Part shown: positions 7,660 to 20,154 of the stretch, in pieces
Position numbering within the stretch: the first letter of the stretch is position 1
Layout of the letters: each line of letters begins with the position of its first letter
Source of the DNA: a virus
Virus record (IMG/VR): IMGVR_UViG_3300048672_000257
Coordinates: 1-20,154 of that record
DNA: 20,154 bases
Reading direction: 5' to 3' (one strand)
The notes under the pieces: model-generated
Seen by the model: the letters and a program-made list of their open reading frames with translations, nothing else
Database searches by the model: none
Told to the model about the DNA's origin: nothing
Program-made: the position numbers and the translations under genes

Positions 7660-9717
7660 ATGGGAATTAATTATTTCAATCAGCAACAAGGGGGTGATGG
7701 CTTGCCTGTAGGTACGGTGATATCAGCATCCACAAGCTCCACGCCACTCACTGGCGACTATCTGCCCTGTAACACCCCCAAGCTTCTACTTAAGTCTGAG
7801 TATCCAGACCTACAAGGTGCTGTTGGTGTGCAACCTTGGTATCCAGACTTGACTAAAGTGAGTTTACCTGCCTTTGGCAGTTTCTCTGCTTTAGATATTG
7901 TCTACGGTAATAGTAAATACGTGGCCATTGCAGATGGGGGTCAAGTCGGCACGTCCACAGATGGCATTACTTGGACTTCTCAATCAAGTCCCTTGTCAGC
8001 AGCACCCTCCAATACACTGTCGTTTTGTAATGGATACTTCTGGGCTACAGGTGGTACAAGCTCTTTCTACTCAGCAGACGGTGTTACTTGGACAACAGTG
8101 TCAAGTATGGCACTTCGTCATGTAGTTTATAGTAATGGTGCTTACCTTAGCAACCACCACTCAGGTAACGATGTCTATATTAAAGCTTCCACTGACGGGA
8201 ATACTTGGAACGTGGTGGGGACAGTATCATTATCTGCAAATCCAGTGTACAGATACTCCAACTTACTTGTACCAACAGACGGTAAGGTAGTGTATTTACA
8301 GAGTAATGATACTGGGGGGACATTTACAGCAGTATCTTACTCAAATACAGGGGCTGCAATATCCTCTCAAAACCTCAATGTAACTGATTTGGCAAATGTG
8401 GGAGACTATTTGTCAGATTTGTACATTTCATGGGGGGATCGTAATAATGGAGCTGGTACAGGAGAGTACTGGATTTGGTCTAGGAAGCACACTGATGACA
8501 GCAACTATAGGATACATACCGCCTCTGGAGTGGAGTCTGGCGGTTCTTCCTCTTGGAGTAGGACAACACCCACCAATTGGGTTGGCTCGTCAAGTGCCCC
8601 TAAAGGTATCACGAAGTGGGTGCATTACTCGACATATGGAATGGCAGCTATCTGCCCCGTAACAGACTCGATATACTTAACTACCGATGGAATTACTGGG
8701 ACGGTCATCTCTGCACTAGACCCCACAGGTGTATCTACCAATGCCACAAACTTTGCAGTTACAGATAGTGTTGGTGCCATTAAATATACAAACAGTACTA
8801 CAGACTTAACTCCCAACACTGTAGCAGTTAGCCCATTTACAGCAACCTCACTCTATGACTGCTATGGGGTTGCGTCTGACGGGGTGTCTAAAGTTGTTGC
8901 TATATCGGCAAGCACCTCTACATACTATCATAGCCAAGATGGTGGAGCTACTTGGACAGCAAGTACAACATTAACTACACCCGCTCAAGCTATTGGATTT
9001 GGAGCTACAAAGTTTGTGTCGTTGAGTAGCACCAGTCCGTACCTTAGATATTCAAGTGATGGTATTACTTGGACTAATTGTACAGGTACTCTCCCCACCT
9101 ATACCGTAAGTTACATTCATTGGACAGGGACAGCTCTCCTCCTGTCCACCACATCTGGTTTATACAGAAGTACGAATGGCATTGCTTGGACTCAAATTAA
9201 TACCGTGTCAGGGACTTATCTGTGCAATATCGGAGCTAAGGTATTGAGAGTACTAGCTTCAGGATCAGCCACCCTGTCCTCAGATCATGGGGCAACGTGG
9301 AGCGCTATAAATATCACTGACTACTTCGGTGTCCCAGCGGGTGCTATCGAATTTGCCAGTGTATTTAAGGGGCAATTTGTTGTGTCACCTGCCACCAGCA
9401 CTTCTATGTATTACTCTGAGGATGGAGTATCATGGTCAAGCAGATATAAAGTCGCGTCCTTAAAGCCTAGATGGTATGTGCAGGATGTCTTATTAGACTC
9501 GACATACCTCTCATCTGACGGGGTGGAGGTATTTTCTGGGTACTCTAAGTTGCCACCTACTAACGCCAAAAATGCCGTCTGTGAGATAGGGGATACAGTG
9601 TTTCTTGCAGCAAGTGGTGGACTACAGAAAGGAAACTTACTGGGCTACGACACAGGTACTTATGTTGCTTTTAGGCCTATAACAAGTGTGAATAACGCCC
9701 ACATGAAAGTGAGGTAA
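7660..9717 (+). CDS. Tail fibre / receptor-binding protein with Asp-box repeats
   Basis: 685 residues. The N-terminal 15-55 resembles the start of a phage tail-collar domain (LPVGTVISASTSSTPLTGDY, then LLKSEYPDLQGAVG). The body carries repeated Asp-box (BNR-like) motifs, S-x-D-(x)-G-x-T-W: residues 99-105, 138-144, 177-183, 215-222, a degenerate one at 341-347, then 425-432, 465-471, 504-510 (Asn for Asp), 540-547 and 586-592. Spacing is close to 39 residues inside each set, as in beta-propeller blades. The C-terminus (NNAHMKVR) recalls the short basic 'Y.kV' end of collar-type fibres. Likely role: host surface (glycan) recognition at the tail tip. No sialidase catalytic set can be identified, so enzymatic activity is not claimed. 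Confidence 0.75.
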   Translation: MGINYFNQQQGGDGLPVGTVISASTSSTPLTGDYLPCNTPKLLLKSEYPDLQGAVGVQPWYPDLTKVSLPAFGSFSALDIVYGNSKYVAIADGGQVGTSTDGITWTSQSSPLSAAPSNTLSFCNGYFWATGGTSSFYSADGVTWTTVSSMALRHVVYSNGAYLSNHHSGNDVYIKASTDGNTWNVVGTVSLSANPVYRYSNLLVPTDGKVVYLQSNDTGGTFTAVSYSNTGAAISSQNLNVTDLANVGDYLSDLYISWGDRNNGAGTGEYWIWSRKHTDDSNYRIHTASGVESGGSSSWSRTTPTNWVGSSSAPKGITKWVHYSTYGMAAICPVTDSIYLTTDGITGTVISALDPTGVSTNATNFAVTDSVGAIKYTNSTTDLTPNTVAVSPFTATSLYDCYGVASDGVSKVVAISASTSTYYHSQDGGATWTASTTLTTPAQAIGFGATKFVSLSSTSPYLRYSSDGITWTNCTGTLPTYTVSYIHWTGTALLLSTTSGLYRSTNGIAWTQINTVSGTYLCNIGAKVLRVLASGSATLSSDHGATWSAINITDYFGVPAGAIEFASVFKGQFVVSPATSTSMYYSEDGVSWSSRYKVASLKPRWYVQDVLLDSTYLSSDGVEVFSGYSKLPPTNAKNAVCEIGDTVFLAASGGLQKGNLLGYDTGTYVAFRPITSVNNAHMKVR

Positions 9718-10518: not shown

Positions 10519-10953
10519 ATGGAACAGGTTAAAGTGGTATTTGGTAGTAACTGGAAGCCAGCTTCAATATTCATTAAGTTGTTCACTTGGAGTAGATGGT
10601 GCCACTGTGGGATTGTTGATGGTGAATATATCATTGACACCACTTTAGCTACAGGATGCAGACGTATCCTTATCTCTGAGTGGGTGAAACACTATAACAC
10701 TTATGAAGTGATGGATTTCCCTGTTGGGAGTAAAGAAGGTTGTTTGGACCTAGCTCGTAGTTATGTTGGCAGTGCTTATGATTGGCTTGGTATCTTATCT
10801 TATGCTTTCTATAAAGAATTTGACGATAAAACTAAGTTCTTCTGTTCCGAGTTACTTGCACATTGTGTTGGTATGAAATACAAGCCTTGGAGTATATCAC
10901 CTGCATGGTTATATAAATTAGCGAAAACTTGTAAGGGGTGGCTGTATGAATAG
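10519..10953 (+). CDS. Permuted NlpC/P60-like (papain-fold) cysteine enzyme
   Basis: 144 residues. The arrangement is that of the circularly permuted NlpC/P60 group (YebB/YiiX-like): an N-terminal His in SRWCHCGIVDGEYIIDTT (His29) and a C-terminal nucleophile in TKFFCSELLAHC (Cys109, followed by Ser-Glu). In that group the order His first, Cys later is diagnostic, and substrates are peptide or amide bonds of peptidoglycan or acyl groups. The gene overlaps the endolysin gene by 8 nt, which suggests a role in lysis or wall degradation. There is no signal sequence. A virion-associated wall enzyme is an alternative. Confidence 0.68.
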   Translation: MEQVKVVFGSNWKPASIFIKLFTWSRWCHCGIVDGEYIIDTTLATGCRRILISEWVKHYNTYEVMDFPVGSKEGCLDLARSYVGSAYDWLGILSYAFYKEFDDKTKFFCSELLAHCVGMKYKPWSISPAWLYKLAKTCKGWLYE

Positions 10954-13920: not shown

Positions 13921-14859
13921 TTAATCCTCAGTAGATTTAAGCTCGTTGATTAAATTGCGTATCAAAGTACAAACACTGTTTTTAGAAGATGTATCTTTCT
14001 GCTTAACATCAAGATTAACCACCTTAGTTTGTATTGTACACAATTGATTATAAACTTTCAACTTAGTTGCAAAAGTAATAGGTTGAGCACCACCAAATAA
14101 CTTAAGGCGTAAACCATTTACAATCTCCTTAGCTTTATTCTCACAATACAGATTAGCTTCACTAAGGAACATAAATCCACAAGTGGCTTTCTCACTAGCT
14201 CCGTGAAAGTCAGAGAACATATACTCACCTTTAACTTTAAGGTATCTTACATAGTTTCTTCCATTGTCATTCTGCATGTGTTGGATTAAATCGTTGTCCT
14301 TAAGGTAAGTCATCGTTGTGTCGTAGACCAACTTGGTTACATCCACTTCATACAAGTTACCATTGTAATAGGTCTTTCCATTAAAAGCTAGGATGTTCTT
14401 AATGTAATCTGAACCTGTATCCTCAACTGTACCGACAATCTCAATATCAACGGGGGTGTAGGTTATAGTAGGTTCTGTGTAGAGAATCTCCACATGAGAT
14501 TTTAGAAGCTCTGTTTGTTTACGAACTTCAAACTCAACTTCAAGTGATGGGTATACACACTTCTCATCATCCTCGTCATAATATGGGGCAGTTAACGCTG
14601 CAAGTTTTATGCAATAATCCCTGACGTCCATTACAGAACCATCTGCATACACATATCCTGATACAGAACGTGAACTCCGTTGAATGGATTGTATCGGCAG
14701 GATGTCATTGCTGTATAAAATCTTGTGTCCGTTGTAACCAGAATTCACCTCATTACCATTAGCTAAGAGATAAGAACCGTATGGCAGATTGACCATGATC
14801 TGATCTCCAATGATAATAGCTTGTTTTTCTTTTAGTGCATTTAGTAGTGTTACACTCAT
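13921..14859 (-). CDS. Hypothetical protein, 312 aa
   Basis: Not recognised; the largest unknown of the window. AGGAGAAACAAT precedes the ATG. The N-terminal ~60 residues are a beta-rich segment (AIIIGDQIMVNLPYGSYLLA, then 'GHKILYSNDILPIQ'). The middle has an acidic region (APYYDEDDEKC) and further strands (YTPVDIEIVGTVED, 'GKTYYNGNLYEVDVTKLVY'). The end is helical and Lys/Ser-rich (NSVCTLIRNLINELKSTED). There is no signal peptide and no TM segment. It follows the HNH gene by 28 bases and may be translated from the 15651-15679 promoter. Role unknown. Confidence 0.7.
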   Translation of the reverse strand: MSVTLLNALKEKQAIIIGDQIMVNLPYGSYLLANGNEVNSGYNGHKILYSNDILPIQSIQRSSRSVSGYVYADGSVMDVRDYCIKLAALTAPYYDEDDEKCVYPSLEVEFEVRKQTELLKSHVEILYTEPTITYTPVDIEIVGTVEDTGSDYIKNILAFNGKTYYNGNLYEVDVTKLVYDTTMTYLKDNDLIQHMQNDNGRNYVRYLKVKGEYMFSDFHGASEKATCGFMFLSEANLYCENKAKEIVNGLRLKLFGGAQPITFATKLKVYNQLCTIQTKVVNLDVKQKDTSSKNSVCTLIRNLINELKSTED

Positions 14860-14887: not shown

Positions 14888-15490
14888 TTATACTACTGGT
14901 GTATCAATTGTGCAAGCTCTGCCGTGATTTTCATGATAATTATAAGTTAACTCAGCTTCTTTCCTTGCTGCAATTGCTAAATCTTTGTCAGAGAAGTGCC
15001 CAAGATTAATCTTTTTGTAATTATCCCAAATATAAGCTTCATACTCCCCATTACCTTTGTTGAACGAAACGCCTGTGCAACCAGAAGTGTTAGTAGAGAA
15101 TATCTTAGCATTCCTACAGTTTTCCATATTAGTGACACTACGAAAGTTATTCAAAGCATTGTTTAATGGGTTGCCATCAATGTGGTCTATTAAATCTGGC
15201 TCAGTGCCATAGACAAGTTTCCAGATAATTCTATGAACATAGTATGACTTATAGTCCAGTCTTAGCTGTCTGCTCCTAGACCCGCAGGTAGTCTCAAACT
15301 CGTGGCCAGCCTCTTGCCCTGCAATTGTACTGTTCATCCTACGAATTCTTCTTTGTTTCCAACCATAAGCTGATAATACTTCTATATCAAAGTAATCTAC
15401 CCACTTCAAACTTCCAGTTTCTGGGTTGTAGGAAAATAGAATCTTCAAGTATTCTTGAGCTGGCAATTTTTGTATCTTAGTTAAGCTCAC
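14888..15490 (-). CDS. HNH homing endonuclease with AP2-like DNA-binding domain
   Basis: 200 residues from a GTG start at 15490 that overlaps the preceding stop (GTGA). The HNH_3 core is clear: YVHRIIWKLVYGTEPDLIDH, then IDGNPLNNALNNFRSVTNME and NCRNAK, with the H...N...N catalytic pattern. Residues about 137-175 (NTSGCTGVSFNKGNGEYEAY, then GHFSDKDLAIAARKEAE) are an AP2-like DNA-recognition module. The end (YNYHENHGRAC) is also typical of this group. These proteins are free-standing or intron-encoded endonucleases that spread themselves; here it lies downstream of the nrd genes, a common place for such elements. No intron boundaries were identified. Confidence 0.88.
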   Translation of the reverse strand: MSLTKIQKLPAQEYLKILFSYNPETGSLKWVDYFDIEVLSAYGWKQRRIRRMNSTIAGQEAGHEFETTCGSRSRQLRLDYKSYYVHRIIWKLVYGTEPDLIDHIDGNPLNNALNNFRSVTNMENCRNAKIFSTNTSGCTGVSFNKGNGEYEAYIWDNYKKINLGHFSDKDLAIAARKEAELTYNYHENHGRACTIDTPVV

Positions 15491-15711: not shown

Positions 15712-17445
15712 TTACATACACATTTCACACTCAGCACGTTTAATATCACCAGCCCCACGCATAGAGTAGATGTAGTATAAAGATAAGATACCTTCATCAT
15801 CAAACGCTTGCTTGTGAATCTTACTCATGTACTCCTCTGTATCATTAGATGTGAAGTATAAGTTGATACTCTGTCCTTGATCTACCCACTGTTGCCTTTG
15901 CGAACACAATTGTAAATAAGACTCCATAGGTATCTCAAAGGCAGTCCTAAACACCTTCTTCTCATGTTCACTCAACCAATCCTCTTGTTGCACACTACGA
16001 GCTTTGGCAATCCGCATGATAGTTTCATCACTGTAAACCTTACGCTCCTTCATAATACCAAGAAGAATCTTATTAATACGGAAGAATTCACCTCCAGCAG
16101 ATTGTTTAGTAAAGGCCATAGCGGTATCGAGGCCAATACCTTCACTGGCACCCGCCATAAGCTCAGCAGTAGACTTGGTAGGGGGCATCATCAATCGTGT
16201 AGCATTTCTGACACCCATCCCCTTACAGCCAGAAGGCTCCCCTAACACAGAAGCTAACCATTTAGTAGCTATTAAGCTTTCATCTCCAATATGTGAGAAT
16301 ATTTCTCCATTCAGAGCAAAGCTGTCAATATCCCCAACAACGATATTCTTCTTCTGCATCAAAGTGTGCCAACCTAAAACGCCACTCCCTAATGCTCTGA
16401 AGTCTTCTGTAAACTTTCTAATCTTACGCATAGCCTGCTTATCATAGACAGACATTTCATCAATAGTTTGTAAATATTCAGTGACATTACAATCACTCAT
16501 AACTTGTCCAATCTGAACAAGATGTTTAGGCCATGAATCCCATAACTCAAGGTTATAATTAAGAATCACACAACTGTACGTGTATTCCCAACTAGCAGGT
16601 AGTATGCACTCCTGACACAAATTGCTTGCATGGAACTCTAGCCCTGCCCGTTTAAACGCTTCAGCTAAGTGCCTACGGCATTTACTGATAAAGGTGAAGT
16701 ACCCCTTACCTCTTGGCAATTTAACACCAAGCATACGTTCCCACTTACTCAGTGCCAACTCATCTTCATTATCTAACAGCTCTTTAAATTCGTCATCTAG
16801 TAGCCAGCCGACATTGTTAGATTCTGTTTCTTCATAGAGGAAAGCAAGCACCTTGTCAAAGTCACCATGTTGTGGACGTAGACTGTATGCCAAACTACCT
16901 CTACGACTGCCTTGAGTAACCTCGTTCATACAGTTAATGAAATCTCTTATCAATGGCATTACACCAAGACTTCTACCACCACGAGATAACTTAGTACCTT
17001 CGGCAGGCCAGTCATCAATACCATAACTTGTACCGTGGCTGTGCTTAGTCAGCACCGCTGCTTCTGTGATTGCATCGTATCGGTCAAATAGGTTATTACC
17101 AACTACACCACCAGAACAACTTACTGTGGTTCCCCGCTTACGTATCCCAGCATTTGCCATCATTGGGGTAGATGGTGAAATATAGCCATCCCATAGAGTA
17201 TTAAAGAAAACCTGTGCCCAAGTTTTACCTTGAGTGTACTGGTCTTCTTCCCACCAATCAGGCTTCTCAACTGGAGCATGTTTAGCCATTGTGTGTGCAA
17301 TAGAGGTCATCCTTGACCTTACTGTTTCTTTGTTATACGAATACTTCTCGTAGAACAATTGTAAGCCTGCTGTAGTGTACCAATTAGGTACTTCACCTTC
17401 CTTCTGTAACTGCTTACGTAGCTTACTATAATCTAATTTACTCAT
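15712..17445 (-). CDS. nrdA: Class I ribonucleotide reductase, large (alpha) subunit
   Basis: 577 residues, about three quarters of E. coli NrdA (761). It makes dNDPs from NDPs. Visible landmarks: SPSTPMMANAG (90-100); Cys110 (VSCSGG) and Cys292 as the redox pair; SNLCQE with Asn275, Cys277 (thiyl) and Glu279; the PPTKSTAELMAG phosphate-binding loop (421-432); Tyr557-Tyr558 of the radical path; and a C-terminal CEMC (Cys573, Cys576) that accepts electrons. The N-terminus starts directly in the catalytic region, so no ATP-cone (activity site) is present. The start at 17445 is set by GGAGGT three bases upstream; an upstream in-frame Met would add 40 residues encoded by the nrdB 3' end and is rejected. 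The ATG overlaps the nrdB stop by 8 nt. C-terminal CxxC suits the adjacent glutaredoxin. Confidence 0.93.
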   Translation of the reverse strand: MSKLDYSKLRKQLQKEGEVPNWYTTAGLQLFYEKYSYNKETVRSRMTSIAHTMAKHAPVEKPDWWEEDQYTQGKTWAQVFFNTLWDGYISPSTPMMANAGIRKRGTTVSCSGGVVGNNLFDRYDAITEAAVLTKHSHGTSYGIDDWPAEGTKLSRGGRSLGVMPLIRDFINCMNEVTQGSRRGSLAYSLRPQHGDFDKVLAFLYEETESNNVGWLLDDEFKELLDNEDELALSKWERMLGVKLPRGKGYFTFISKCRRHLAEAFKRAGLEFHASNLCQECILPASWEYTYSCVILNYNLELWDSWPKHLVQIGQVMSDCNVTEYLQTIDEMSVYDKQAMRKIRKFTEDFRALGSGVLGWHTLMQKKNIVVGDIDSFALNGEIFSHIGDESLIATKWLASVLGEPSGCKGMGVRNATRLMMPPTKSTAELMAGASEGIGLDTAMAFTKQSAGGEFFRINKILLGIMKERKVYSDETIMRIAKARSVQQEDWLSEHEKKVFRTAFEIPMESYLQLCSQRQQWVDQGQSINLYFTSNDTEEYMSKIHKQAFDDEGILSLYYIYSMRGAGDIKRAECEMCM

Positions 17446-18421
17446 CTGACCTCCAAGCAGCACTAAACCCACGTTCATTATAAGATGTCTCATACTCCAT
17501 ACCCATACCAGCAGTAAAGAAGTCAATAACCTTATAGGCGTAGGTATTCTTTTCAAACCAATCAATGATGGGGCAGTCTGTAACTTTAAATCTAGCAGGT
17601 AACCCTAGACGATTGAGATAAATATTCAACCTATGTTTTACATATTGTTTATATTGATCTTTAGTAACACCATTCAAACTGTCCCCTAGGATAGCTAGGT
17701 CAATGATACGGCATTCATGCTCGTAAGCTGCCTCAACTGCTTCTAGTACCTTAGTGTAACGCTCTGTGTCTTCCCGTAGGGTTGTACCAATCTCGGTGTA
17801 GTAGGTGTTGATAATCTCAGCACTCACTTGACCATGTAAATCTTCGTCAATAGCGGATTGGTTTGTTCCACGAGAAATCACAGGTATTAAGTTATACCCA
17901 TTGGATTGAAAGCTTTTCAGAATAGAGAAAGAGCTGAATAATAAGGCTGTCTCTGTCATGCTGAAAATAATGATGCCCAATATACGATCTTCCCCACGTA
18001 AAACATTGTCTAACCACTCAGCCCTAGCATTTAAGATAGGGTCTTGTGTATATGCAAGATAATGCTCATCTGTATCCAATCCAAGTTGGATATTAACTTG
18101 ATCGTAGAATTCAGCATGTATTGCCCTTTCCGTAGCTTCAATAATTGAGCAAGATAACTGCACCTCTGGTCTTGGGAACGTCTTAGCCACTACTTGCCAG
18201 AAGTCTCCAACCTTACGCTCATAATGAACAAACAAACCTAACACTGTGGTTACAGCATGTTGTTGCTCTGGTGTAAGCTCATACTTGAGTTGCATCTTAT
18301 CTAGATGCACCTTCATCTCAGCACTTGTCCAGAACTGCTCATCAAACTGTTTCATTGCAAGCTTAACAATGTTTGGGTAGTACCGTTTATAACTGTTAGT
18401 TGGTGTTGTCAGTCTTGACAT
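17438..18421 (-). CDS. nrdB: Class I ribonucleotide reductase, small (beta) subunit
   Basis: 327 residues. The start at 18421 follows GGAGGT by four bases; a TTG four codons upstream is less likely. The ferritin-like helices carry the radical/metal site: a His-Ala-Glu-Phe-Tyr motif with His102 and Tyr106 (positions of E. coli His118 and radical Tyr122), Glu157 (SMTETALLFSSF, as Glu204), and DEDLH with Glu193 and His196 (as Glu238 and His241). The ligand that should precede His102 by three residues is Arg99; Glu98 is one position earlier. The ligand matching Asp84 aligns with Glu68. These two spacings are unusual (see findings). The gene overlaps the glutaredoxin gene by 26 nt and nrdA by 8 nt. 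The exact metallocofactor subclass cannot be read from sequence. Confidence 0.9.
   Translation of the reverse strand: MSRLTTPTNSYKRYYPNIVKLAMKQFDEQFWTSAEMKVHLDKMQLKYELTPEQQHAVTTVLGLFVHYERKVGDFWQVVAKTFPRPEVQLSCSIIEATERAIHAEFYDQVNIQLGLDTDEHYLAYTQDPILNARAEWLDNVLRGEDRILGIIIFSMTETALLFSSFSILKSFQSNGYNLIPVISRGTNQSAIDEDLHGQVSAEIINTYYTEIGTTLREDTERYTKVLEAVEAAYEHECRIIDLAILGDSLNGVTKDQYKQYVKHRLNIYLNRLGLPARFKVTDCPIIDWFEKNTYAYKVIDFFTAGMGMEYETSYNERGFSAAWRSDE
17449..17454 (-). promoter_or_regulatory. Ribosome binding site of nrdA
   Basis: GGAGGT inside the nrdB 3' end, three bases before the ATG at 17445; it decides the nrdA start. Confidence 0.7.
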
Positions 18422-18659
18422 CAATACCTCCAAAAGCTTTTAAGATTTCTTTAATCACAGATACGCTACTACCGACATACTTAAGGCCATTAATCATTGT
18501 AACTGGGATGTTTTTTATACCTAACTCTTTAGCCTTCTGCATCCCATCTTCTGTCATAATATCAACTTCAGTGAATGGGATGTTAACCATTTCCAGTTGT
18601 TTCTTAATTGTCTTACAACCGCCACACCAAGGAGCTGAATAAACTATAACCTCATTCAT
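18396..18659 (-). CDS. Glutaredoxin
   Basis: 87 residues, the typical length. The N-terminus MNEVIVYSAPWCGGCKTIKK holds the CxxC active site (CGGC, Cys12 and Cys15). The cis-Pro loop is KNIPVTMING (Pro52), and 'GLKYVGSSVSVIKEIL' is the GSH-fold terminal helix region. It reduces the C-terminal thiols of the large reductase subunit, which fits its place just upstream of nrdB and nrdA. CGGC rather than CPYC is less common but seen in phage and bacterial thioredoxin-like proteins. The ATG overlaps the upstream stop (ATGA). NrdH-type redoxin is a possible alternative name. Confidence 0.88.
   Translation of the reverse strand: MNEVIVYSAPWCGGCKTIKKQLEMVNIPFTEVDIMTEDGMQKAKELGIKNIPVTMINGLKYVGSSVSVIKEILKAFGGIDVKTDNTN
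18426..18431 (-). promoter_or_regulatory. Ribosome binding site of nrdB
   Basis: GGAGGT inside the glutaredoxin 3' end, four bases before the ATG at 18421; it supports that start over the upstream TTG. Confidence 0.65.
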
Positions 18660-19045
18660 ATACAGTCTTCTCCAGCATCACTCTCTACATCATAATCTTT
18701 AGAATCAAACATTCCTTCAGCACTAACGATACCAGAAGTTCTAATACTATTTAACTCACGTAAGAAACTTCCGTCTCCACGAGCTTCAGCTTTAGCCTGA
18801 GCACTGGCAGCTCCAGATACTAACCAACCTTCGTCACTACGTTCTACCCCAGTAACACGCTTACCTTCAACCACTTCATTCATTAAGTTACGGTGTGTGC
18901 ATTCTTCATAAGTAAAAGGTTTAGTAATATCCACCCCATTCAAATATAAGACTCGCAACTCTTCTCGCTTGTTATTCTCTTCTTTTGCTTTTCTGTAAGC
19001 TTCAATTCGGAGTAAATCCGACTCAGATAAAATGTGATACGCCAT
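18656..19045 (-). CDS. Hypothetical protein in the dNTP operon, 129 aa
   Basis: Not recognised. AGGAGAAGTAG precedes the ATG, and the stop overlaps the glutaredoxin ATG. The first 30 residues are a charged helix (LSESDLLRIEAYRKAKEENN). Then a segment THRNLMNEVVEGKRVTGVER lies before an Ala-rich helix (VSGAASAQAKAEARGDGSFL). The tail is acidic (FDSKDYDVESDAGEDC). No TM segment or catalytic motif is visible. Its place between thymidylate synthase and glutaredoxin suggests co-regulation with nucleotide metabolism only. Confidence 0.65.
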   Translation of the reverse strand: MAYHILSESDLLRIEAYRKAKEENNKREELRVLYLNGVDITKPFTYEECTHRNLMNEVVEGKRVTGVERSDEGWLVSGAASAQAKAEARGDGSFLRELNSIRTSGIVSAEGMFDSKDYDVESDAGEDCI

Positions 19046-19060
19046 CTACTTCTCCTACTG

Positions 19061-19948
19061 TCAAACTGCTAACTGGGGACGGGGAGTTGTGAATGGTGTT
19101 TTATTCACTTCAAGCCCAACCACTGTAAAATCTTCCCACTCTAATTTCAGAAGATCATCTAAGGTATTAATATTCTTGTTAATAATTACTTCACCTTGTT
19201 TACCTAAATCCCTTTCAACTAACTCCTTGGCATAGTCTACTTGATCCTTATAAATATGTACATGACTTAAATCAGCAGATAGCCTACCAAGTCTATAACC
19301 ATACATCTTACATAGACAGAGTTGCAGTAGTCGATATTGTTGTACAGCAAAGCTGTAACCAAACACAGAGTCTAATGAACGGTTACGAAGCTTCATGTGC
19401 AATGTATCACCAATCACTACCACTTGAAAGTTAAACCAACAAGGAGTTAGACACATTAAATGGTGCTCCGCTGGGTTCCACAAGTCAACCATAATTCTAC
19501 GAGAGAATGGGTCAAATGTGAGTGTGTTAATTAAACCAGCTAATTGATCTATTCCAACATCATCTGAACATATTGGATTAACACCCCCACCGAAGTCCCT
19601 ATATTGTAAGCTATAGGCTCTGCCAAGATCACCTTCTTGTAGCTTATGTAGCCCACGTTTATTTAAGAACTCTCTTGATGTTTGGGGTTTCCAGAAATCA
19701 ATACCTTTAGCTTCCAACTCTTTAGTGTTTGTCTTCCCTCGTAAGAAGAACCAAAGTTCCTCGAAAGACATTCTTAAAGCTGCTGGCTTAATTGTAGAGA
19801 AGCAACCAAAATAATCTTCTGGGTAGACTACCTTAGCATCAAAGATTGAGTAAGTACCCACGCCAGTTCTATCTGTCTGCTCTTCACCATTAGCCAAGAC
19901 ATCCCTAATGAGTTGAACATAACCTTGTTCCCCGTAATACTCTGTCAT
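19061..19948 (-). CDS. thyA: Thymidylate-synthase-family enzyme (ThyA-like, altered base site)
   Basis: 295 residues. The ThyA fold is clear: QTDRTGVGTYSIF with Arg27 (E. coli Arg21); EELWFFLRGKTN with Glu64 (Glu58); Trp86; LGRAYSLQYRDF with Tyr112 (Tyr94); FSRRIMVDLWN with Arg150-Arg151; LTPCWFNFQ with Cys170 (nucleophile Cys146); RNRSLDSVFGYSF with Arg190, Ser191 and Asp193; VHIY with His231 and Tyr233. Two base-facing residues differ: Asn177 is Ala201, and His147 is Trp171. The normal reaction is dUMP plus methylene-THF to dTMP; because of the changes, another C5 modification or relaxed dUMP/dCMP use is possible. AAGGAG precedes the ATG. It is the second gene of the leftward operon visible here. 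Confidence 0.9.
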   Translation of the reverse strand: MTEYYGEQGYVQLIRDVLANGEEQTDRTGVGTYSIFDAKVVYPEDYFGCFSTIKPAALRMSFEELWFFLRGKTNTKELEAKGIDFWKPQTSREFLNKRGLHKLQEGDLGRAYSLQYRDFGGGVNPICSDDVGIDQLAGLINTLTFDPFSRRIMVDLWNPAEHHLMCLTPCWFNFQVVVIGDTLHMKLRNRSLDSVFGYSFAVQQYRLLQLCLCKMYGYRLGRLSADLSHVHIYKDQVDYAKELVERDLGKQGEVIINKNINTLDDLLKLEWEDFTVVGLEVNKTPFTTPRPQLAV

Positions 19949-19962
19949 AGGACTCCTTTAAA

Positions 19963-20154
19963 TTAAAAAGCTTTACCACCAGCTTGTTTACGATTCTCAA
20001 CCTTGTGGTCTTCTCTTTGAGCGTTATATTTCATCTTCTCTACAATAGCTCCAGCTAAATCCATATTATAACCACCAGCTAAATCAAATGCACGTATAAC
20101 GGCATCTGCTAATTCCACTTCACGCATCTTACGATGTGGGAGCTTATCATCCAT
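19963..20154 (-). CDS. MazG-like nucleotide pyrophosphohydrolase, C-terminal part
   Basis: The frame is open to the right edge, so the N-terminus (with the metal-binding EExxE motif region) lies outside; a Met at the very edge is not taken as the start. The visible 63 residues show the typical C-terminal half of phage MazG-like proteins: EVELADAVIRAFDLAGGYNM, then DLAGAIVEKMKYNAQREDHK, with the acidic 'ELADAVIR..DlA' helix of the all-alpha NTP pyrophosphohydrolases and the common AGGKAF end. It likely hydrolyses NTPs or ppGpp-type nucleotides; in phages this is tied to nucleotide pool control. Context with reductase and thymidylate synthase genes agrees. Confidence 0.8.
   Translation of the reverse strand: MDDKLPHRKMREVELADAVIRAFDLAGGYNMDLAGAIVEKMKYNAQREDHKVENRKQAGGKAF

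Follow-up and report, generated by a model that had tools for sequence, protein, structure and literature searches.

A small phage clade of thymidylate synthase homologues with Ala177 and Trp147 in the base-reading pocket

The locus and its neighbouring genes

The window analysed here is the entire 20,154-base IMG/VR record IMGVR_UViG_3300048672_000257, so the remainder of the phage is out of view. Tail and baseplate genes (Baseplate_J) are carried on the plus strand of the window, and a run of nucleotide-metabolism genes is carried on the minus strand, comprising the end of a MazG-like gene, a thymidylate synthase (TS) homologue, a small ORF, a glutaredoxin gene and the two subunits of ribonucleotide reductase (RNR):

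19963..20154, minus strand: MazG-like pyrophosphatase, C-terminal part (phrog_5658 positions 359-421), cut by the contig end
19061..19948, minus strand: TS homologue, 295 aa (ORF call)
18656..19045, minus strand: small ORF between the TS and glutaredoxin genes (phrog_3506); homologues adjoin TS in G001 and G002
18396..18659, minus strand: glutaredoxin/NrdH-like protein (PF00462); the G002 neighbour is 66% identical
17438..18433, minus strand: RNR small subunit, NrdB (PF00268)
15712..17565, minus strand: RNR large subunit, NrdA (PF02867)

The first-pass annotation had read the ORF at 19061-19948 as a TS homologue, and profile searches bear this out: the product matches PF00303 (Thymidylat_synt; E = 4.8e-56, residues 9-281) and phrog_160 (7.8e-64), and scores 136.2 bits against TIGR03284, above the cut-off of 108.35. 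An AGGAG-like ribosome-binding site lies directly 5' of its ATG. The small ORF has no Pfam match and is without a TS domain, and the name 'thymidylate synthase' carried by phrog_3506 is probably a label borrowed from the neighbouring gene. The listed TTG start of the RNR large subunit overlaps the small-subunit gene, and its true start is likely further downstream. A single PF00303 gene, with no second TS, was found in each of six records tested (a set without G003-G005). ThyX was considered as the phage's true TS and rejected, as PF02511 had no match in eight genomes (a set without G004 and G005).

Elsewhere in the window, an HNH endonuclease gene (HNH_3; 14888-15490, minus strand), likely a homing endonuclease, adjoins the RNR large subunit, and a 312-aa protein (13921-14859, minus strand) has no Pfam match and matches only phrog_17099, of unknown function. 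On the plus strand, a 685-aa protein (7660-9717) at the tail-fibre position has no PHROG match, and the ORF at 10519-10953, which is followed by a predicted lysozyme-like ORF, has a weak match to permuted papain-like amidases (C92) and its product shares approximately 29% identity with a protein of Slickus01 that carries the annotation 'permuted papain-like amidase'.

Pocket residues and the clade that shares them

Residues were numbered by alignment to E. coli ThyA from NC_000913. Positions of the base-reading pocket and of features used below are as follows, where A177 members are the seven homologues, the window enzyme included, with Ala at E. coli position 177:

19448..19450, minus strand: Leu167 codon (E. 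coli Leu143; Asp in hydroxymethylases; alignment, PMC6400193)
19439..19441, minus strand: Cys170 codon (E. coli C146), catalytic nucleophile (alignment)
19436..19438, minus strand: Trp171 codon TGG (E. coli His147; alignment)
19382..19384, minus strand: Asn189 codon (E. coli Gln165); Asn in all A177 members
19346..19348, minus strand: Ala201 codon GCT (E. coli Asn177; alignment)
19337..19339, minus strand: Gln204 codon (E. coli Ser180); Gln in 7/7 A177 members and in SCTP-2
19262..19264, minus strand: His229 codon (E. coli Asp205); position changed in all A177 members
19064..19078, minus strand: codons of the C-terminal tail PQLAV (alignment, PMC6400193)

The placement of Trp171 at His147 and of Ala201 at Asn177, on which the first-pass annotation was built, was reproduced in this alignment and recurs in relatives. 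Cys170, Asp193, Tyr112, His231 and the phosphate-binding arginines had also been described as kept, which is correct and extends across the A177 members. The aligned pairs (window = E. coli) are D193=D169, Y112=Y94, H231=H207, Y233=Y209, R190/S191=R166/S167, E64=E58, W86=W80 and L167=L143, and R21, E58, W80, Y94, R126, R127, L143, C146, R166, S167, D169, G173, H207 and Y209 are kept in all seven members. The roles thereby retained in the window enzyme are those of the nucleophile, the general acid/base, the phosphate arginines, the folate-contacting Asp169 and the ribose-contacting His207 and Tyr209. Several near-fixed positions of canonical TSs are altered as well, namely Q165 to Asn, S180 to Gln, P144 to Thr, D205 to His and I79 to Phe; those at 165, 180 and 205 had not been remarked on before.

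Asn at 177 is named among the residues invariant in TS (PMC6005164), and no example with Ala177 was found among characterised TSs. Since the window enzyme has Ala201 there, it was filed as a TS-family variant with a putative substrate. All 75 canonical comparison sequences were H147/N177, a count that is unbiased at 177 and biased at 147: most of these sequences were gathered with two search patterns, of which one required His147. The original flag on this pair was reasonable, since 177 and 147 are the top two positions associated with DNA modification in MetaGPA (PMC8670742), but it put too much weight on Trp147. Working TSs tolerate other residues at position 147: the V. parahaemolyticus enzyme, assayed as working, has Met at the equivalent position (PMC6005164), B. 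subtilis TS-A has Val, and changes at E. coli His147 and mouse H190A lowered activity and left the Km for dUMP unchanged (PMC7962005). The V. parahaemolyticus TS (VAAP clade) resembles the window enzyme in its non-His residue at 147 and its altered binding residues, and is active on dUMP; it differs in retaining the Asn (Asn191) and in having its other change at the phosphate site (PMC6005164).

The set W147/A177/N165/Q180 is common to the window, the contigs L007 and L008 (72% identity to the window enzyme each), L017, L129 and Slickus01. The last, an Alishewanella phage cultured on strain SMS8, encodes a homologue (WGH49817) about 50-52% identical to the window enzyme and, unlike it, located away from RNR; Slicko01, likewise a cultured Alishewanella phage (PMC10507051), has a homologue of 50-51% identity. 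The seventh A177 member, L128, has H147. A sequencing or frame error was ruled out because the Trp/Ala pair recurs in independent contigs in the same intact frame. The TGG and GCT codons are unchanged in L007 and L008, and the window and L007 genes differ at 140 of 291 third codon positions and 43 of 291 second positions; with these codons kept and divergence falling mostly at third positions, purifying selection appears to act on the TS gene.

A tree was made without columns 147 and 177, using a quick search without bootstrap, in which the hydroxymethylase rows were long-branched. The comparison with hydroxymethylase families that had been proposed as a check was carried out: the A177 members and the TS of Salicola phage SCTP-2 formed an 8-row clade (SH-aLRT 100), with a long stem branch (0.89), nested inside canonical C-tailed phage TSs and apart from both hydroxymethylase clades. 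A 16-row clade that adds C-tailed H147/N177 TSs had an SH-aLRT of 99. SCTP-2, the closest named relative outside the A177 set, shares QQ at 179-180 and differs in having F147, S165 and D205 and in still having Asn177. The canonical TSs of phages RAS14, XacN1 and PA5oct (35-40% identity) belong to the larger clade and share the catalytic set, L143, W80 and the tail; they carry H147, N177, D205 and Q, M or A at 165, whereas the window enzyme has W147, A177, H205, N165 and Q180. No bacterial member of the W147/A177 clade was found in a scan of genome contigs. The Ala177 and Trp147 changes mark a small phage clade.

Chemistry and choice of base

The features of reductive TSs, L143, W80 and the closing C-terminal tail, are all present in the window enzyme (L167, W86 and ...QLAV), and by sequence they point to reductive methylation. 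In TS this tail closes the active site for hydride transfer (PMC6400193). Leu is found at 143 in 7/7 A177 members and most have a tail ending in ...AV or ...SV, with ...VA in L017 and ...AK in L129. An AlphaFold2 model, whose input alignment consisted of the window and scan-fetched sequences only, had a mean pLDDT of 91.7 and TM scores of 0.86-0.90 to solved TSs, and the best PDB matches by sequence and fold were dUMP-binding TSs, many with dUMP and antifolates bound. The window gene is probably an active folate-dependent, dTMP-forming TS with rebuilt base recognition; we infer its activity, substrate and base-reading side chain.

The genome neighbourhoods fit dTMP supply. In L129 a dCMP deaminase gene lies approximately 0.5 kb from the W147/A177 TS, the L128 contig (G004) encodes a dNMP kinase, a dCMP deaminase and DHFR within approximately 6 kb of its A177/H147 TS, and G001 also carries a dCMP deaminase. 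In the window, the TS gene has RNR and glutaredoxin genes for neighbours. A PF08761 dUTPase is encoded in Slickus01 and in G003 (the source of L017), and no trimeric dUTPase (PF00692) was found. DHFR was found only in G004 and not in G001, G002, G003, G005 or Slickus01; most of these are incomplete sequences, and DHFR could come from the host. A deaminase-DHFR-TS cluster is also present in phage AXL1 with an enzyme that has D177, so such a neighbourhood supports dUMP use without proving it. Among its other genes, G001 (L020-L024) has one for Gad1, a Gabija anti-defence protein, and two for NT5C-type nucleotidases, of which one lies approximately 1.3 kb from the TS; Slickus01 and G003 (L001, L034-L038) both encode an anti-CBASS Acb1 homologue, and G003 also encodes an S-adenosylmethionine lyase-family protein.

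From work on Asn229 of L. casei TS, the Asn177 equivalent reportedly excludes dCMP. As this is the role of Asn177, its loss could relax specificity, and a relaxed or dCMP-directed methylase would make 5-methyl-dCMP, alone or with dTMP, leading to 5-methylcytosine in phage DNA or to dTMP via later deamination. We regard this as unlikely, and similarly doubtful is the claim that a Trp147/Gln180 pocket lacking Asn177 takes dCMP as well as dUMP, or dCMP for the most part, and yields 5-methyl-dCMP without the Asp177 present in all the other cytosine-type members compared. In its favour, the N177D/N229D change turns TS into a dCMP methylase (cited in PMC8670742), the tail and L143 leave reductive methylation possible, neighbouring deaminases could act on the methylated product, and the complete genome of Slickus01 yielded no dCMP deaminase. 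Against it, Asp occupies 177 in T4 gp42, in 55/55 sampled relatives, as had been stated at first pass for dCMP hydroxymethylases, and in the AXL1 homologue, and on this comparison Asp177 is the mark of cytosine use; where the comparison is with dCMP methylases of the Xp12 type (5-methylcytosine phages), for which AXL1 stood in, this mark is putative and drawn from the N177D work and AXL1 (D177/P147/N143, against A177 in the window). The Asp of T4 gp42 is required for N3 protonation (PMC6400193), which Ala177 cannot provide, making dCMP preference unlikely, and the A177 clade sits among dUMP-type TSs. By sequence, then, dCMP specificity of the A177 enzymes would be disfavoured and dual acceptance of dUMP and dCMP possible. 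The AXL1 TS homologue itself (L214:623-1564; AXL1 is an Xp12 relative), which lies beside dCMP deaminase and DHFR genes, is plausibly a dCMP methylase for 5-methylcytosine DNA; AXL1 DNA resists restriction at C-containing sites (PMC9206674).

A pyrimidine hydroxymethylase, producing 5-hydroxymethyl-dUMP or -dCMP for hypermodified DNA, is improbable. The Slickus01 homologue is annotated 'thymidylate synthase/pyrimidine hydroxymethylase-like', a label for which no experimental support was found; Asn165 is shared with every dUMP hydroxymethylase sampled, and the loss of D205 is a further trait in common with hydroxymethylases; and G001, G003 and Slickus01 encode NT5C-type nucleotidases, but so do phages with a canonical TS. 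In structural work on T4 gp42, hydroxymethylation was tied to a water-activating acidic residue (Asp or Glu) that precedes the catalytic Cys by three positions; in gp42 this is Asp145, which is essential (D145N is inactive), and the TS tail is absent (PMC6400193). Asp143 was found in T4 gp42, its tree relatives and 5/5 SPO1-type dUMP-hydroxymethylase sequences, all with tails that differ from that of TS, whereas all seven A177 members have Leu. Thus T4 gp42, which shares the superfamily and Cys nucleophile with the window enzyme, has D143, T147 and D177 and no tail, against L143, W147, A177 and a tail in the window (Leu167 for Asp145, Ala201 for Asp179). SPO1 gp29 and its relatives share N165, the Cys and the RS-D-G and H-Y motifs, but have D143, N147 and N177 without the tail (5/5 sampled), a different C-terminus and no aligned W80; a search of viral contigs for SPO1-type enzymes returned no loci. 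With Asp143 absent, Trp80 kept and the tail kept in most of the clade, hydroxymethylation is disfavoured, as it is by the position of the clade in the tree. Carbamoyltransferase was absent from six records, and no hypermodification family was among the Pfam matches listed for the scanned protein subsets of G001, G003 and Slickus01. The CMP hydroxymethylase MilA (PMC5175136) also belongs to the TS superfamily and has an altered pocket, but was rejected as a precedent for Ala177, since its Ala176 aligns with Ser167 and Asp186 stands at 177; MilA/BcmA enzymes have Ala at S167, Lys at R126 and Asp177 (PMC5175136), and the window enzyme has S167, R126 and A177. Of the options first proposed, an unusual TS has therefore gained from L143, W80, the tail, the tree and the neighbours, while hydroxymethylation has lost ground for want of Asp143 and dCMP preference for want of Asp177.

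It is also improbable that the pocket was remodelled to take some other pyrimidine nucleotide, either a bulkier one or one that already bears a modification at C4 or C5: positions 144, 147, 165, 177, 180 and 205 did change together on the stem branch of 0.89, but no gene of a pathway to such a substrate was seen, and the enzyme has the usual ribose and phosphate sites, with the deoxyribose-preference residues S167 and R126 (PMC5175136) kept. A degenerate or catalytically dead TS retained for another role, which the loss of the normally fixed Asn177 and the long stem branch might suggest, is highly improbable given that all other catalytic residues are kept over 50-72% identity, divergence is third-position-dominated and this is the sole TS in the records tested.

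Proposed recognition of uracil and its implications

As a dTMP-forming TS, the enzyme would reductively methylate dUMP for phage DNA synthesis by standard chemistry, in which Cys170 would attack C6, methylene-tetrahydrofolate would supply the one-carbon unit and hydride transfer would give dTMP and dihydrofolate. The altered step would be the reading of the pyrimidine C4/N3 edge, where the Asn177 carboxamide is lost and its space may be refilled by Trp147 and Gln180. Contacts to O4 and N3 would probably be made by the Trp147 indole N-H, the clade-specific Gln180 amide (Gln204, a candidate replacement amide), or both, a proposal drawn from alignment position and helix spacing alone, 177 and 180 being approximately one turn apart. 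The enzyme may also shut out dCMP less strictly than an ordinary TS does. Gln180 is found together with Asn177 in SCTP-2, B. subtilis TS-A and SPO1, and so may predate the loss of Asn177 and have permitted it.

TS is among the most studied of enzymes and a major drug target. Asn177 is regarded as its invariant specificity residue, and the lack of this residue throughout a conserved clade of natural enzymes would mean that other side chains can be recruited to read uracil. The combinations F147/N177 (SCTP-2), H147/A177 (L128) and W147/A177 (the remaining members) are apparent intermediates for the evolution of base specificity. They also counsel caution, in that positions 147 and 177 alone are insufficient to call a hydroxymethylase. 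Slickus01 and Slicko01 are cultured, which makes the substrate question directly testable; if dCMP proved to be accepted, these enzymes would add a phage route to modified cytosine.
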